Shown here in pieces: positions 1 to 4,850 of a DNA stretch of 64,000 bases. The translations under genes were made by a program, and so were the position numbers. The DNA is from Mariniphaga sediminis (GTDB taxonomy: Bacteria; Bacteroidota; Bacteroidia; Bacteroidales; Prolixibacteraceae): the NCBI RefSeq assembly GCF_003573545.1, contig NZ_QWET01000020.1:1-64000 (forward strand), read 5' to 3'. Within the stretch, counting starts at the first letter, position 1; every line of letters begins with the position of its first letter. The notes below the pieces were generated by a model, which saw only the letters and a list, made by a program, of their open reading frames with translations, was not told the DNA's origin and made no database searches.

Positions 1-354
1 TTCCCAAGATCCATACTTGGATGTAGAAATTACTTTATTCCAATAAGAAAAACGGACTTTTTGCCGGCCTTGATTAATGCTACAAGTTATCTCTTTTGAT
101 GTTAGGTTTCCAAACCTTGCACACTTGATAAGAAAAGTAAACAAAAGAATCAAGAAGAAAACAAAGCTATCCTCGCGCTCTTGCCATTTTTAACGGCTTT
201 CGTATTACGGCTACTACAGCCTAAATGTCAATTCACCCCTACCCTTGCCCGCATTTTCTTCTTGCCAGCACCATAACTATCAAAATATCAATCGATTTAA
301 TGATGTTTACTATTTATTTCCAAAGAAATAATTTCTGAATTTAGATAGCAATTG
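1..354. other. Gene-free left edge
   Basis: I see no convincing coding frame, RNA gene or strong hairpin here. The stretch lies downstream of the DUF6527 gene, which is transcribed toward it. It is AT-rich, like the accessory genes that follow, and may hold the end of the same transferred segment, but no repeat or attachment site is visible. Confidence 0.5.
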
Positions 355-717
355 CTACTTACTACTTTTACTTTCAAGTTTTTCGAAATACAATTTTCTT
401 CTTATTTCTTCTGCTGAATTTCCAGCCGCTATTTCTTCCTCCGACCATTGATAAGACCATTTAATTTCACCATTGCGAATCCAATAATGAGACTTACATG
501 GTAACTGCCAATTGCCTATAGAAGGATATAAACTTGGTTTATCTTTTTTAATAGTTAATTGCCATTCTGTTGAATCGAGCGGAGTTATAATTTTATTTCC
601 ACATCCACATGGACACAAATGACCTGCAATACCGTATTTTTTCGAAACATATAAAATACCTGTTTCCAATTTATTAGGTAAGTATTTTACTTTCAGTAAT
701 TTAATACTATTTATCAT
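355..717 (-). CDS. DUF6527 family protein, probable zinc-binding partner of a Ubl system
   Basis: A 120-residue protein matching the pattern I know for DUF6527: an H-L-C-P-C-G-C-G cluster (His33, Cys35, Cys37, Cys39), then P-S-I-G-N-W near residue 66 and C-K-S-H-Y-W-I near 74-80 (Cys74, His77). The Cys/His pairs suggest a bound metal, probably zinc. DUF6527 genes recur beside ThiF/E1-like and ubiquitin-like genes in bacteria. From memory, unchecked, members have been proposed to act as peptidases on the ubiquitin-like protein. Its ATG overlaps the stop of the E1 gene by 4 bases (ATGA), so it is probably translationally coupled and last in the operon. Family call good; peptidase role is inference. 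Confidence 0.8.
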   Translation of the reverse strand: MINSIKLLKVKYLPNKLETGILYVSKKYGIAGHLCPCGCGNKIITPLDSTEWQLTIKKDKPSLYPSIGNWQLPCKSHYWIRNGEIKWSYQWSEEEIAAGNSAEEIRRKLYFEKLESKSSK

Positions 718-1889
718 TCACCTACACAATTAAACCCGTCAAGAGTGAATAACTGATGATAAAATTTTTCATCATCAGCATAAAAGCCTTTTAATTGCTT
801 GTACTTTATTATTGCCATACATGCATTTAAAGCATTTAATTCAGAAATTTGAATGTTATTCTTATAAATATCATCAGGCAGATCATCAAGAGGTGCCAAC
901 CTTTTATCAATTAATTCCTCTGAATTTTCTTTCGAATAAAAAGTTGTTCGGACAGTACCACTAATTTTATCATTCTCCCTCTCAAGCCCCATCCCAACAT
1001 CAATAAATGGTATTTTCATTTCGATTAAAAGCTTAAAAATTTCTCCACGAGATTTTCCTTTGTCAACACAAACAAATGCAAATGAGACTCCATTTAAATC
1101 ATCAAAAGAATCTGCTAAGATGTATTTGGATTTAATATTCAGATTAATCCTAAATCCTTCATACCGTTTCTGATAAACTTCTGATTTTCTTTTGCCTAAC
1201 TCTTCATCCTCTAATTTCCCGGGAGAACGAAAAGCATTATGGACATGGAACCAATCAAGATCAAATCCACGAATCTCTTTTACAGGAGTTTTAACCATAA
1301 AATCCAGAAGATATGCTCCAGTTCCTCCTAAACCTATGATAGCAACTACTTCCTCTTTAAACTTTGCTGAGAGATCTCCAATTTCCGCTCTACTTGTTAA
1401 GGTGTCACTATACTTGAAAATAGATTCCTCATTTACTTCAACATTTCTAAATGTCAAAGGATTGGCATCATATAATTCAATTGCAGGACCAGCTATAATG
1501 TTTACATAGCTTTCTATTTTCTCAAAATAGTCTCTGAAGCCATTTAAGGGTTTATTTGAAAATGACCGTTGTACCACAATATCTGCTGATACTAGCTGTA
1601 ATTTCGTTGGTCCCCCTCCGAGATTCCTAATCAAACTTCCATCAAGTTGACATGGGTGTGTCCCGCAAAAGAATATTTGATGATCTTCTTGTTTTACTTT
1701 TTTCTCATCAACATATACCAACTTAGACACAATTGCACCTATTTGAAGATTCTTTTTTTCATCTAAGTACGGTATGTCCCTTATTGCGAGATAACCACTA
1801 TCAACTGAAAGGGCGTATCCTTTTTCATAAAGCTGTCTGATATCCTGATTATGATTGACCAGTATGCTTAACTTTGAATTCCATTCCAT
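714..1889 (-). CDS. DUF6791-ThiF fusion, E2-like plus E1-like ubiquitin activation enzyme
   Basis: 391 residues in two parts. Residues about 15-160 match DUF6791, with I-P-Y-L near 39-42, the D-H-Q-I-F-F-C-G-T-H-P-C run near 69-80 and S-F-S-N-K-P near 109-114; I infer an E2-like role. Residues about 165-391 are a ThiF/E1 adenylation domain: G-L-G-G-T-G at 186-191, D-L-D near 210-212, then N and R-S-P-G near 218-224, and C-V-D-K-G-K-S-R near 274-281. The family activates the C-terminus of a ubiquitin-like protein with ATP. There is no cysteine where the E1 crossover loop is expected (about 311-330); cysteines are at 75, 80, 274, 357 and 388. The start overlaps the Ubl gene by 41 bases in another frame. 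No CxxC zinc pair is visible. Confidence 0.85.
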   Translation of the reverse strand: MEWNSKLSILVNHNQDIRQLYEKGYALSVDSGYLAIRDIPYLDEKKNLQIGAIVSKLVYVDEKKVKQEDHQIFFCGTHPCQLDGSLIRNLGGGPTKLQLVSADIVVQRSFSNKPLNGFRDYFEKIESYVNIIAGPAIELYDANPLTFRNVEVNEESIFKYSDTLTSRAEIGDLSAKFKEEVVAIIGLGGTGAYLLDFMVKTPVKEIRGFDLDWFHVHNAFRSPGKLEDEELGKRKSEVYQKRYEGFRINLNIKSKYILADSFDDLNGVSFAFVCVDKGKSRGEIFKLLIEMKIPFIDVGMGLERENDKISGTVRTTFYSKENSEELIDKRLAPLDDLPDDIYKNNIQISELNALNACMAIIKYKQLKGFYADDEKFYHQLFTLDGFNCVGE

Positions 1890-2094
1890 CTTTTACTTGT
1901 ACGTTACTTCCTGGTGATAAAATACCAGTAGGTTTGTTTCCTTGACCTCTTTTGTATGTAACCGAATATGTTCTCTCTGGATGTTGGGGAAAGTCAGGGA
2001 AAGCAAGGGTTACAACCTCGTCATAAGTTATTTTTTCTTTTTCAACTTCATGTGGTGTTCCATTTACCACGATTGTTACTTCTTTTTTTGCCAT
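1849..2094 (-). CDS. Ubiquitin-like (multiubiquitin-type) single-domain protein
   Basis: 81 residues with a beta-grasp pattern: a first strand-turn-strand (V-T-I-V-V-N-G-T-P-H-E-V), a helix around 24-32, the Y-S-V-T-Y-K-R-G strand at 43-50, and a closing G-S-N-V-Q-V-K-D-G-M-E-F-K-V strand. It resembles the multiubiquitin family (PF14452 by memory), but with one domain instead of tandem copies. It ends T-G-Q-S, so Gly79 would become the C-terminal residue if two residues were removed. It sits directly before the E1 gene and overlaps it by 41 bases, and is followed by a DUF6527 gene; this order fits a substrate, its activating enzyme and a processing factor. Confidence 0.8.
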   Translation of the reverse strand: MAKKEVTIVVNGTPHEVEKEKITYDEVVTLAFPDFPQHPERTYSVTYKRGQGNKPTGILSPGSNVQVKDGMEFKVKHTGQS

Positions 2095-2168
2095 GATTCT
2101 AAATATTTAATTGTTTAACCATTATTTGTTCTGTTATACTTTGGATTTTGACCTCCATGATTTTTTCT

Positions 2169-2366
2169 TTAATTATTTAATTGCCTAGCTTCTTCACTTT
2201 TAGCTCCATATTCAGTTTTTGCTTTTCCAACTTGTTGAATGTGTGAGAATTTTTTCCTGTCTGCTTCGTGTTCTTTTGCTCTCTTTTCAAGGTCATTTGT
2301 AGTACCTTTGTAAACAATCTTCTGTCCTAACTTAAGATTGTAATTGTATGTATTTCTTTTTGTCAT
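2169..2366 (-). CDS. Small GIY-YIG-like protein, possibly truncated by a stop codon
   Basis: 65 residues containing K-I-V-Y-K-G-T-T-N-D-L-E-K-R-A-K-E-H, which resembles the first half of a GIY-YIG module (Y...G.T.dle.R...H). The second catalytic half is absent, so nuclease activity is doubtful. After the TAA at 2169-2171 the same frame continues for 17 codons to a second TAA at 2115-2117 and encodes a tail with H-G-G-Q-N-P-K-Y-N, which looks protein-like. One base change of the stop to TAT would restore an 83-residue protein. It is first in the operon, 74 bases before the Ubl gene and downstream of a good promoter box. Confidence 0.6.
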   Translation of the reverse strand: MTKRNTYNYNLKLGQKIVYKGTTNDLEKRAKEHEADRKKFSHIQQVGKAKTEYGAKSEEARQLNN

Positions 2367-2407
2367 ATCAAAATTAATAATTACATTAGTGAAACAATTT
2401 GTTACAC

Positions 2408-2435
2408 CAAAGATACGTTAAACTTATGAAACAAA
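2408..2435 (-). promoter_or_regulatory. Probable promoter of the Ubl operon
   Basis: On the minus strand 2415-2408 reads TATCTTTG, an exact match to the Bacteroidota -7 element TAnnTTTG, and TTTG lies at 2435-2432 with a 16-base spacer (shorter than the usual 19-20). The start of the first gene is about 42 bases downstream. Short inverted pieces (CGTTA/TAACG, GTTAC/GTAAC) surround it between about 2400 and 2445 and could be repressor half-sites for the divergent XRE protein; that is a guess. Confidence 0.5.
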
Positions 2436-2468
2436 GCGTAACGACAAAGAAACATTTATAAACAAATT

Positions 2469-2792
2469 ATGAACAGCGAGCTTAAAATTGACTTGTTATC
2501 CCGAATGATCAAAGAAAAACGAGGAAGTACTGGTTTAAGAACTTCAGCCCAAGAAATTGGTGGAATAAGTGCTCCAACGTTGTCAAGAATTGAAAAGGGC
2601 AATGTGCCAGACGTAGATACATTCATTAAAATCTGTAAATGGTTGGGAGTATCAACCGATACTTTCATTAATTCTGAACATAGTAATTCAAGACAGAAAC
2701 TAATTGGACATTTGAGAGCAGATAGAGAACTTGAACCAGATACTATCGAGATGCTTGTTAAATTAATAGATATGGCCTATAAAAAGTTGTGA
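2469..2792 (+). CDS. XRE-family helix-turn-helix repressor
   Basis: 107 residues with a Cro/C1-type helix-turn-helix over about residues 8-68 (recognition part near S-A-P-T-L-S-R-I-E-K-G) and a helical tail of about 35 residues. Such proteins are usually dimeric repressors. It is divergent from the Ubl operon, about 100 bases away, and its stop overlaps the GTG start of the ImmA/IrrE gene by 4 bases (GTGA). In this arrangement the partner peptidase normally cleaves or destabilises the repressor. Likely targets are its own promoter and the divergent operon, by inference. Confidence 0.85.
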   Translation: MNSELKIDLLSRMIKEKRGSTGLRTSAQEIGGISAPTLSRIEKGNVPDVDTFIKICKWLGVSTDTFINSEHSNSRQKLIGHLRADRELEPDTIEMLVKLIDMAYKKL

Positions 2793-3355
2793 GTACTAAA
2801 AAGAACATATTAAAAAGGGGATTCAAGGCTGAAGCTGAGCGTATTTCCGAGCAATTGAGAATAGAATTAAATGTTCCCATTTATGATGAACTCTGTGCCT
2901 TCAAATTAGCGAAATATTTAGGTGTTGAAATTTTTATACCCCGAGAGCTTGGTTGTTCGGGACATGAAGAGAAGAAGTTATTATTGGAATCAGGCTGGTC
3001 AGCATTTACATCAAATAAGGAAGGTCAATACTTTATTATTCATAATAATTCACATAGTCCCAAAAGACAACAAAGTAATTTGATGCATGAACTCGCTCAT
3101 ATTATTCGTAAACATGAAATCTCGGAAGAAATAAAAAATTTACCATACTTCATGCGCTATTACAATCCAGAACAAGAAGCGGAGGCTGAGTATTTAGGAG
3201 CGGCTCTTCAATTACCACGTAAAGGGCTGCTGTACCATTTAAAATATGGAAAATCAACACATGAAATTGCAGATCATTTTAGAGCTAGTTACAAAATGAC
3301 CAATTTTAGAATTAATAATTCAGGATTGAAAAAACAAATTAGTTATTGGAAATAG
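2789..3355 (+). CDS. ImmA/IrrE family metallopeptidase
   Basis: 188 residues with the zinc peptidase motif H-E-L-A-H at 100-104 and an acidic stretch E-Q-E-A-E-A-E-Y-L-G-A-A-L-Q-L-P near 128-143 that supplies the third ligand, as in the COG2856 (ImmA/IrrE) family. It begins with GTG inside the XRE stop codon, so the two are co-translated. Family members cut a partner repressor after a stress signal: ImmA with ImmR, IrrE with DdrO, CapP with CapH in CBASS loci. Placement beside a Ubl operon suggests it releases that operon from repression. Confidence 0.85.
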   Translation: MSTKKNILKRGFKAEAERISEQLRIELNVPIYDELCAFKLAKYLGVEIFIPRELGCSGHEEKKLLLESGWSAFTSNKEGQYFIIHNNSHSPKRQQSNLMHELAHIIRKHEISEEIKNLPYFMRYYNPEQEAEAEYLGAALQLPRKGLLYHLKYGKSTHEIADHFRASYKMTNFRINNSGLKKQISYWK

Positions 3356-3704
3356 CACTCCACACCCATTTGCTCCGTTACTCTCCGCAAAAGAGTGTTC
3401 CGTTTAGGAAGTTCAGAATTCCAAAACTTTTTGCCAACCCACTAGATCGTGCTAAAACTGAGTTTTTATAAAGAAGGAAAAACCAGAAAAATATAGCCAA
3501 AGCTATATTAATATAATGCACCACATTATAGGACAAACGTATTTATATTATATTTTGGAATACCAGGCATATTTACGTCCAGCTCTGCTGGTTTGCATAA
3601 AATCAGTTATCGCGACGTTTAAGTCCGATATCGGTAAAGATTTTATGTAAAAGTTTATACAGTAAATCTTGTGTACGCTTGCTTTTGTATAGGTTTCCAA
3701 ATGA
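3356..3704. other. Non-coding stretch with several palindromes
   Basis: No gene is seen. It contains CCAGC-tct-GCTGG (3579-3591), a perfect 9-base inverted pair CATAAAATC (3596-3604)/GATTTTATG (3639-3647), and between them a perfect 10-base palindrome CCGATATCGG (3625-3634). Near 3388-3412 there is weak similarity to the IS3 fragment at 5169-5192. It separates the ImmA gene from the end of the converging PP-loop gene and could be a recombination site or a degraded insertion end. Confidence 0.4.
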
Positions 3705-4850
3705 TTAACAGTTGGATACCCCATTAAATATAATTTTTTTCATAACATCCAGAGCAGGTCTAATATCAAGATCTTCACTTTGAAAATAATTTTTCAAAAA
3801 CTCAATCTCCTTCTTTTCCTTTTTTAATGCTTCGTCTCTTGAAATCATGTCATTTCGGGCAAGTACTGCAAGCTTAAATCCTGAATCGGTCAATCCCGTT
3901 CTTTTCAAGCAAGTAAAATTTGAAAAATCGTGCAGTAAGCAATCCATTTTGGCTTCTCTGTCCGCTGGTGCTTTCCAGCCCACATTTTCTTCCAATATTT
4001 TTATTTGATAAAATGGATCGTACGGTATATAATCATAAAAATACAGCGTTTCGGTTTTTTTATTTCTAAATGAAACTTGCAAATAAGGTGTAAATTTATA
4101 AAAACCACCGGGTGCATTAAGCTTAATGTTATCCAGTACCATATTTTTTAGAAACATCATATAATGAAACAATGCACTAACTTTTGATTTAACAGATATT
4201 TTATCTCTTAAAATTATTTTTCCGATAGAAATTAGAGTGCTATACATTTGCTTTCTAATTAATTTAAAACTTGCAAATTCATCCCTGAAGTGAGAAGCAG
4301 AAGGTTTAAGTAAACTTGATGCACTGTCTTCATAATCAGTAGATCCCCAAATTATATACTTGGTTCCTTGCTTTTTTGCCTCGTTAATTGCTACTGTACG
4401 AATATTATTTTCACAATTCGTACAATAAGAACCAACCCTTCCAGTATAGTATGATACTTTCCAAGCATGCTGAACGATTTTCCTACGGTAAGGAGATGCA
4501 TATTTTATGACCAAATCAACATTTAACTTTTCACAGATTCCTTTTACGTTGTTTTTAGCTTCTTCAGTAGCAAATCCACTATCGAAGTAAACCGCTAAAG
4601 GATTTAATCCCATTTTTTTAACAAGATAATATAATATATAAGAACTGTCTTTACCTCCACTTATGGGTACAATACAATTATATTTTTCTTCTTTACCAAG
4701 TTCTAGTGTTGATTGTAAAATTTTATCTTGATTGGTCTTCGACTTATTTCCCAAAATTTTTGAGTTCGATTGACAAAATGAACATTCACCATTTTGTATC
4801 TTAACATTTGGATAGCTATCTGGTACAATACACTTTGAACAAATTGCCAT
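3705..4850 (-). CDS. PP-loop N-acetyl-sugar amidotransferase-like protein
   Basis: 381 residues. The N-terminus has two Cys pairs (C4-x2-C7 and C23-x2-C26) with I-V-P-D-S-Y-P between them, like the C-x-x-C-v-m-P-D start of the WbpG/PseA-type N-acetyl sugar amidotransferases. The PP-loop S-G-G-K-D-S at 64-69 binds ATP. A further C-T-N-C near 143-146 precedes an I-R-T-V-A helix. Family members use ammonia to convert an acetamido sugar in surface polysaccharide synthesis, normally with a HisH/HisF-like pair. No such partner or sugar gene is here, so the gene looks orphaned or transferred. Confident on PP-loop, less so on the substrate. Confidence 0.7.
   Translation of the reverse strand: MAICSKCIVPDSYPNVKIQNGECSFCQSNSKILGNKSKTNQDKILQSTLELGKEEKYNCIVPISGGKDSSYILYYLVKKMGLNPLAVYFDSGFATEEAKNNVKGICEKLNVDLVIKYASPYRRKIVQHAWKVSYYTGRVGSYCTNCENNIRTVAINEAKKQGTKYIIWGSTDYEDSASSLLKPSASHFRDEFASFKLIRKQMYSTLISIGKIILRDKISVKSKVSALFHYMMFLKNMVLDNIKLNAPGGFYKFTPYLQVSFRNKKTETLYFYDYIPYDPFYQIKILEENVGWKAPADREAKMDCLLHDFSNFTCLKRTGLTDSGFKLAVLARNDMISRDEALKKEKKEIEFLKNYFQSEDLDIRPALDVMKKIIFNGVSNC

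Follow-up and report, generated by a model that had tools for sequence, protein, structure and literature searches.

Among the closest described relatives of the operon considered here are the polyUbl operons, built around a ubiquitin-like protein (Ubl). Row 6e of Table 1 in Iyer, Burroughs and Aravind 2006 (PMC1779556) lists for these a Ubl, an inactive E2/RWD-like protein, a fusion of a JAB domain to an E1 and a metal-binding protein, together with a subset in which an N-terminal ‘domain X’ replaces JAB on the E1; a solo Ubl is entered for one species. For the Bub operons, PMC13373217 (2026) gives CapW or CapH+CapP at 219 of 544, and describes CapP as a protease, activated by single-stranded DNA (ssDNA), that cleaves CapH. 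An earlier paper (PMC4963859, 2016) describes such a pair next to the Synechocystis cassette, gives 70% of multiubiquitin proteins a COG2856/DUF955 protein as neighbour, and interprets this as toxin-antitoxin. The window analysed here, by which we mean the whole 64,000-nucleotide stretch at positions 1 to 64,000 of Mariniphaga sediminis contig NZ_QWET01000020.1, carries close to its start (355–3355) a compact operon of this general kind: a single-domain Ubl, an E1-like protein that joins an N-terminal DUF6791 to a ThiF domain, and a DUF6527 protein, all facing a divergent XRE/ImmA pair.

We see directly the gene content of this locus and its conservation, the linkage to a controller, the adenylation-type residues, an E1 half that has no conserved cysteine and a Ubl that has no terminal glycine. 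Whether the whole amounts to a mobile, sporadically distributed, compact operon of the polyUbl/Bub kind, repressed by XRE and derepressed by ImmA under stress, in which the E1 would adenylate the Ubl for transfer to targets, we regard as an evenly balanced question. The serine-ended Ubl is the feature of the locus most worth testing.

The operon and its divergent controllers

The features, in order along the contig, are these.

355–717, minus strand: DUF6527 protein, 120 amino acids (aa) (Pfam DUF6527, 2.2e-26)
714–1889, minus strand: DUF6791-ThiF protein, 391 aa, an E1-like adenylation enzyme with N-terminal DUF6791 (Pfam, NCBIfam)
1849–2094, minus strand: single-domain Ubl, 81 aa, C-terminus TGQS (Pfam Multi_ubiq, 7e-16)
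2169–2366, minus strand: small GIY-YIG-like frame, 65 aa, ending at an in-frame TAA (21.4 bits, cut-off 22.6)
2367–2468 (102 nucleotides, nt), between the GIY-like frame and XRE: divergent promoter region, putative operator
2469–2792, plus strand: predicted XRE-type repressor, 107 aa (Pfam HTH_3, 5.6e-8)
2789–3355, plus strand: ImmA/IrrE-type metallopeptidase, 188 aa (Pfam Peptidase_M78, 1.7e-18)

The order of transcription on the minus strand is GIY-like frame, Ubl, DUF6791-ThiF and DUF6527, with overlaps of 41 nt (as called) between Ubl and E1 and of 4 nt between E1 and DUF6527; XRE and ImmA likewise overlap by 4 nt. Pfam calls on DUF6527, DUF6791, ThiF, Multi_ubiq, HTH_3 and Peptidase_M78 all lie above the family cut-offs. 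A sequence-only reading of the locus had described both the overlapping minus-strand set of single-domain Ubl, DUF6791-ThiF and DUF6527 and, some 100 bases off and running the other way, an overlapping XRE and ImmA/IrrE pair; open frames and Pfam bear out both, and the gap measures 102 nt.

The three-gene core recurs. Ubl, E1 and DUF6527 were found by profile in all 57 loci examined (47 clusters at 80% E1 identity), broken in a few, and nine loci in named genomes, with E1s 58–82% identical, keep the three genes adjacent, the Ubl and E1 frames of one of them (L023) being broken. The gene order of the window is found again in named genomes and on plasmids across several phyla, more often than chance would give; amongst relatives inspected, no gene is constant downstream of DUF6527. 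In sampled genomes DUF6791 is sparse, with 14 of 395 in the window's phylum and 8 of 398 in the phylum of an Afipia (G459), the centre genome being counted in each. Among 72,556 plasmid records the E1 is present on 116, of which 40 are classed as conjugative and 43 as mobilizable; neither viral contigs nor any of 50,697 phage records carried it. Positions 1–3355 have a GC content of 0.333, whereas 114 windows elsewhere average 0.411 (standard deviation 0.018), none of them being so low. Of 59 other related genomes, 2 have a full-length E1 relative (E < 1e-60), and none of three from the same genus does; this combination of low GC and sporadic distribution fits lateral gain. Amongst named genomes the closest E1 relatives are in Bacteroidota.

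Turning to the controllers, 24 of 47 clusters have an M78-like HExxH protein within 3.5 kb upstream (divergent in 23) and none has one downstream; where at least 3.5 kb was available on both sides, the counts are 21 of 43 and 0 of 43. These counts include 23 plasmid regions, hand-picked for spread from 116 records. Since the ImmA profile had been partly seeded with the loci being counted, we tested the linkage a second time, using Pfam M78 on 31 whole genomes, found by similarity to the window E1 or drawn from two phylum samples. Of 49 matches in all, M78 falls within 4 kb upstream in 19 of 33 DUF6791 loci and never downstream; chance would give 0.047. In three of these 19 the match is co-oriented with the operon (G452, G652 and G708, the last two having it inside an open frame of roughly 1,130 aa), and in G765 its score falls short of the family cut-off. 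The co-occurrence of the XRE/ImmA pair with Ubl genes, which the sequence-only reading had proposed to check across genome neighbourhoods, thus holds up. Each of the two Ubl operons in the window genome has an M78 match next to it, and the genome contains no others; two loci fetched later and kept outside the counts (L127, L128) also have XRE and ImmA upstream, and a third (L129) has a Xre/RES pair.

The identity of the controller varies. XRE profile matches are found upstream in 16 of 47 clusters and downstream in 2, WYL genes upstream in 4 and sigma-like genes in 4; on a quick E1 tree of 49 rows, with many weak forks, the controller label requires at least 18 changes. The XRE/ImmA pair is not an obligate part of the operon. 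Relatives of the window ImmA occur on 33 plasmid records, of which three were inspected (a fourth is L101, a DUF6791 locus): two of the three face canonical Bub operons, in Nostoc (L123) and Synechocystis (L124). At canonical Bub loci, ImmA is upstream in 5 of 8 (3 divergent) and downstream in none. Taken with the sigma-like replacement described below, the changes on the tree and the ImmA relatives at Bub operons make the pair an exchangeable control cassette, shared with Bub.

In a further layout, the genes divergent from the Ubl operon are a sigma-like one of about 200 aa, in most cases one for a small protein of 110–145 aa, and one for an ImmA-type peptidase. It is seen in L062 and L070, and by eye in L022, L053, L055 and L060 (sigma-like labels were assigned by eye in these four and in L070); in L070 the operon opposite is the canonical Bub operon of the genome that carries the window.

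The Ubl tail, the E1-like protein and DUF6527

The 81-residue Ubl matches PDB 9cd2, a multi-ubiquitin domain protein of 222 residues, at 3.7e-7 through the last domain of the latter, and the alignment runs to ...TQTDK, one residue short of the end of the chain. Together with the Multi_ubiq match, this supports at the level of sequence a beta-grasp fold, as the sequence-only reading requires. All 46 intact cluster representatives end in serine and none in glycine (the 47th, L023, is cut short and was left out). Ahead of it, threonine or serine occupies position −4 in 45 tails and lysine, glutamine or arginine position −2 in 45, with position −3 more variable: aspartate in 19, glycine in 10 (the window included), asparagine in 9 and others in 8. 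The C-terminal glycine typical of ubiquitin-type modifiers is hence found in 0 of 46, and trimming down to a glycine is possible solely in the 10 tails that have one at −3, the window's among them.

This serine codon is, in most loci, shared with the beginning of the E1 gene, which reads it in a different frame. It is of the TCN type in 46 of 46 (TCA 23, TCG 11, TCT 8, TCC 4), and as its third base varies, the overlapping E1 residue being histidine, arginine, leucine or proline, the constraint seems to act on the Ubl and not on the E1; at one locus (L069) the overlap is shorter (11 nt) and the terminal serine is still present. In ten canonical Bub loci looked at for comparison, the Ubl is separate by profile in 6, fused to the E2 in 3 and not found in 1. 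Five of the separate Ubls end in or near TEG or TPG (TEG twice, TEGGK, TEGSSVD, TPG); the sixth, a weak match, ends ...NIQFG.

Pfam divides the E1-like protein into DUF6791 (4.8e-46) and ThiF (4.3e-9), and NCBIfam covers it with PRK06153.1-2 (6.6e-187). By profile comparison, its E1 half is homologous to the E1s of eight Bub loci (99.3%, 9.3e-21). Across 44 of the 47 representatives (L023, L062 and L066, with split E1s, were left out), the adenylation-type residues D210, D212, R221 and K235 are invariant and N218 and D276 are present in 43; judging by spacing, these would correspond to the Arg73, Lys86 and Asp130 of MoeB named in PMC12355090. The E1 half has no conserved catalytic cysteine in this set, C274 being found in 27 of 44 and C357 in 9. 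Nor do open frames and Pfam reveal a separate E2 (Prok-E2_E) in the window operon, a JAB match in the window E1 or a JAB gene in the operon; the PADLOC models for Bil and CBASS E1–E2 proteins match the ThiF part alone (best 2.2e-6).

DUF6791 contains H70, S111, K113, K124 and Y128 in 44 of 44 representatives, and Cys80 in 35, the window included, with histidine or tyrosine in the other 9. Its relation to E2 enzymes is faint: local hhalign against Bub E2 returns 2.1% and 6.0% probability, below significance, with 1 of 200 column shuffles scoring as high and a reversed control at 12.8 against 21.9; Pfam gives DUF6791 as the sole confident match, and no E2 family, in 13 of 13 domains; and the single match amongst PDB sequences (6cja, at 0.061) is not an E2. 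We take the profile comparison as a hint of an E2-like fold.

The third protein, DUF6527, contains the motif C-x-C-G-C ... C-x-S-H-Y, with spacing C-x3-C-x34-C-x2-H. Over 47 representatives S66, C74, S76, H77 and Y78 are invariant and H33, C35, C37 and C39 are found in 46, a pattern that makes it a probable metal-binding protein; in the Synechocystis cassette it takes the metal-binding protein's position, and it is common to DUF6791-type and Bub operons. Ye et al. reportedly describe a Ser-His protease family in Bub operons, to which S66, S76 and H77 may relate. Our literature search, whose reach did not extend to Ye 2026 and Gong 2025, returned no publications on DUF6527 or DUF6791 and nothing in print on a serine-ended Ubl.

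DUF6527 is also found outside these operons. Stand-alone homologues are present in 16 IMG/VR contigs (L130–L145; 20–315 kb) and in 3 of 50,697 phage records, namely Erwinia phage pEa_SNUABM_29 (L146:5971–6240), Burkholderia phage FLC9 and Dulem virus 40; no E1, Ubl or E2 profile matches lie near them in the stretches examined of the 16 contigs. Of twelve bacterial matches of at least 44 bits, eleven adjoin an E1, and the twelfth, along with one weaker match, looks prophage-borne by eye. We make no claim of counter-defence for the phage proteins: the two prophage copies sit, by eye, amongst lysis/head genes, and one lacks the serine of the C-x-S-H motif.

Weighing the readings

The reading of an operon released under stress would proceed as follows. 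The divergent XRE would repress the Ubl operon; upon stress (DNA damage or infection) the ImmA-type protease would inactivate XRE, in the manner of CapH+CapP; the E1 half would adenylate the C-terminus of the Ubl; the activated Ubl would be passed to targets, perhaps through DUF6791; and DUF6527 may act as an adaptor, or as an enzyme trimming or removing the tag. By analogy with the published controllers, induction is probably by cleavage of the repressor under stress; antiphage defence is a plausible candidate for the role. Several observations weigh against this. No M78 protein was found upstream in 23 of 47 clusters; the nearest E1 relatives (L019 and L020, 81–82%) have a sigma-like divergent gene in place of XRE/ImmA; and around the third of the inspected ImmA relatives (L125) no Ubl operon lies within 4 kb. 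The window ImmA, a match to PADLOC capP at 1.7e-7, is at 188 aa shorter than CapP-type proteins (the model has 242 positions), with its HExxH at residue 100 and only 84 residues thereafter. PprI is stated to require a GAF-like domain for activation by ssDNA (PMC10904395), and as 84 residues seem too few for such a domain, the trigger of ImmA may differ. An imperfect palindrome at 2389–2407, a candidate operator, is not significant, being equalled in 161 of 1000 shuffles, and was rejected. For Bub operons, phage protection is described in PMC13373217 as not demonstrated. An alternative, in which XRE/ImmA is a toxin-antitoxin module that serves to maintain the Ubl cassette in the population without regulating it, was proposed in print for the Synechocystis pair (PMC4963859) and would agree with controllers being exchangeable between relatives. 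Against it stand the orientation of the upstream M78 gene (divergent in all except one of 24 clusters, never downstream), which fits a shared promoter, the WYL or sigma-like genes at the same place in other clusters, and the reported cleavage of CapH by CapP; we hold this alternative to be quite improbable. The regulatory part of the sequence-only reading, a stress- or phage-triggered system with a repressor released by a protease, draws support from the upstream M78 linkage and the published Bub controllers.

Plain tagging by E1 and E2 has evidence against it: the E1 half is without a conserved cysteine, the Ubl without a glycine end, and the operon without a separate E2 or JAB. The combination of a serine-ended Ubl with such an E1 half hints that the serine C-terminus is activated without an E1 thioester. 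Tentatively, and with rather more doubt than confidence, we propose that the DUF6791 clade represents a Ubl pathway that dispenses with both terminal glycine and E1 cysteine: the E1 half would activate the serine C-terminus (T-x-[KQR]-S-COOH), hand-on would take place by oxygen ester or directly, DUF6791 would be a remodelled transfer domain and DUF6527 a tag-handling partner, with the serine kept by selection despite the overlap with the E1 frame. Bub E1 and E2 reportedly work through oxygen esters (Ye et al.). The presence of Cys80 in most representatives argues against a wholly cysteine-free pathway, and a thioester may form there. Were DUF6791 a diverged E2 with a working C80, an ordinary thioester would form at that residue after the Ubl tail had first been trimmed to glycine, as the window and the nine other tails with glycine at −3 would permit; the replacement of C80 by histidine or tyrosine in 9 of 44, the lack of glycine at −3 in 36 of 46 tails, a Bub E2 profile match below significance (6.0%) and the absence of any Pfam E2 family in 13 of 13 domains make this improbable. 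It is somewhat less unlikely that the E1 merely adenylates the Ubl, the product being a Ubl that is self-assembled or otherwise altered, or else a carrier of sulfur or of a small molecule (of MoaD/ThiS or MccB type), and not a protein conjugate. The missing cysteine, glycine, E2 and JAB would all suit such chemistry, and Gong 2025 is said to report oligomers for bacterial Ubls; the close homology between the E1 half and the E1s of Bub operons that carry an E2, the weak E2-like signal of DUF6791 with its frequent Cys80, and a DUF6527 common to both operon types speak against it, and we consider it doubtful. If a serine-ended Ubl is indeed activated and transferred as it stands, the rule of a C-terminal glycine on modifiers activated by an E1 would have an exception, and one with a clear biochemical test. 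The locus is in any case a minimal three-gene Ubl cassette tied to exchangeable stress controllers, and offers a small system in which to ask what such operons do.

Flanking sequence and relation to known systems

The GIY-YIG-like gene of the sequence-only reading fared less well: a frame is indeed present upstream of the Ubl, and it scores below threshold, is cut by an in-frame TAA after residue 65 (17 further open codons precede the next stop) and has no relative at E ≤ 1e-3 in plasmids, in phages or in the other 198 genomes of a 199-genome search. It is probably a remnant or truncated gene, and a GIY-YIG nuclease as effector was set aside on these grounds. Other small genes take this position elsewhere: DUF2188 (L101, L105, L108, L122), DUF3892 (L118) and DUF1508 (L116). 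Inside the divergent region, TAnnTTTG occurs on the minus strand at 2415–2408 and 2376–2369, a motif we take to be the Bacteroidota −7 type promoter element.

Since the window opens the contig, with 354 bp between DUF6527 and the contig end, an extra gene may lie there. Past ImmA, on the opposite strand, lies a PP-loop enzyme (3705–4850, domain search), and between the two a 137-bp stretch (3525–3661) has a second copy, 86% identical, on another contig of this genome (C27). Neighbours of other loci include a Gabija GajA-like ATPase (PADLOC 1.7e-195) beside ImmA, XRE and the Ubl operon on a Rhizobium plasmid (L100:2047–3441), and a large UvrD-helicase gene immediately upstream of the Ubl operon and co-oriented with it in L103, L106, L107, L109 and L110, that of L103 resembling GajB/DRT helicases.

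The genome that carries the window has a second Ubl operon (L018/L070), which combines Multi_ubiq (9.1e-12), Prok-E2_E (2.1e-35), ThiF (9.2e-31) and DUF6527 (1.6e-21), with a sub-threshold Prok-JAB on its E1 (21.3 of 25 bits); as its E2 matches the PDB entry ‘Citrobacter BubB’ at 6.1e-22, we call it a Bub operon. The window shares with Bub operons a Multi_ubiq Ubl, a homologous E1 half and DUF6527, as well as, in several, the divergent repressor and ImmA; it differs from them in that they have a Prok-E2_E gene, JAB and a Ubl ending in or near glycine, where the window Ubl ends in serine. As the linkage of Bub operons to CapH+CapP or CapW is already published, the central inference of the sequence-only reading was in print for these sister operons.

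In gene arrangement the controller resembles CapH+CapP, in that a small XRE gene overlaps an M78 peptidase gene with HExxH and the two diverge from the operon, and departs from it in the shortness of the peptidase after that motif. The pair Slr6056–Slr6057 of Synechocystis plasmid pSYSX, as presented in PMC4963859, is likewise the same divergent pair beside a Ubl operon, with a peptidase 31% identical to the window ImmA; unlike the window pair, it faces a canonical Ubl–E2–E1–DUF6527 cassette. The polyUbl operons with domain X are also similar in architecture. The window has a Ubl of Multi_ubiq fold beside an E1-like gene whose N-terminal domain, DUF6791, is unrelated to JAB, and we infer that domain X is DUF6791; the metal signature differs slightly, being printed for polyUbl operons as C-x3-C-x(35-38)-H-x2-C and reading C-x3-C-x34-C-x2-H in the window DUF6527. 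Judged by its sequence, the window operon fits the domain-X subset of the polyUbl operons.

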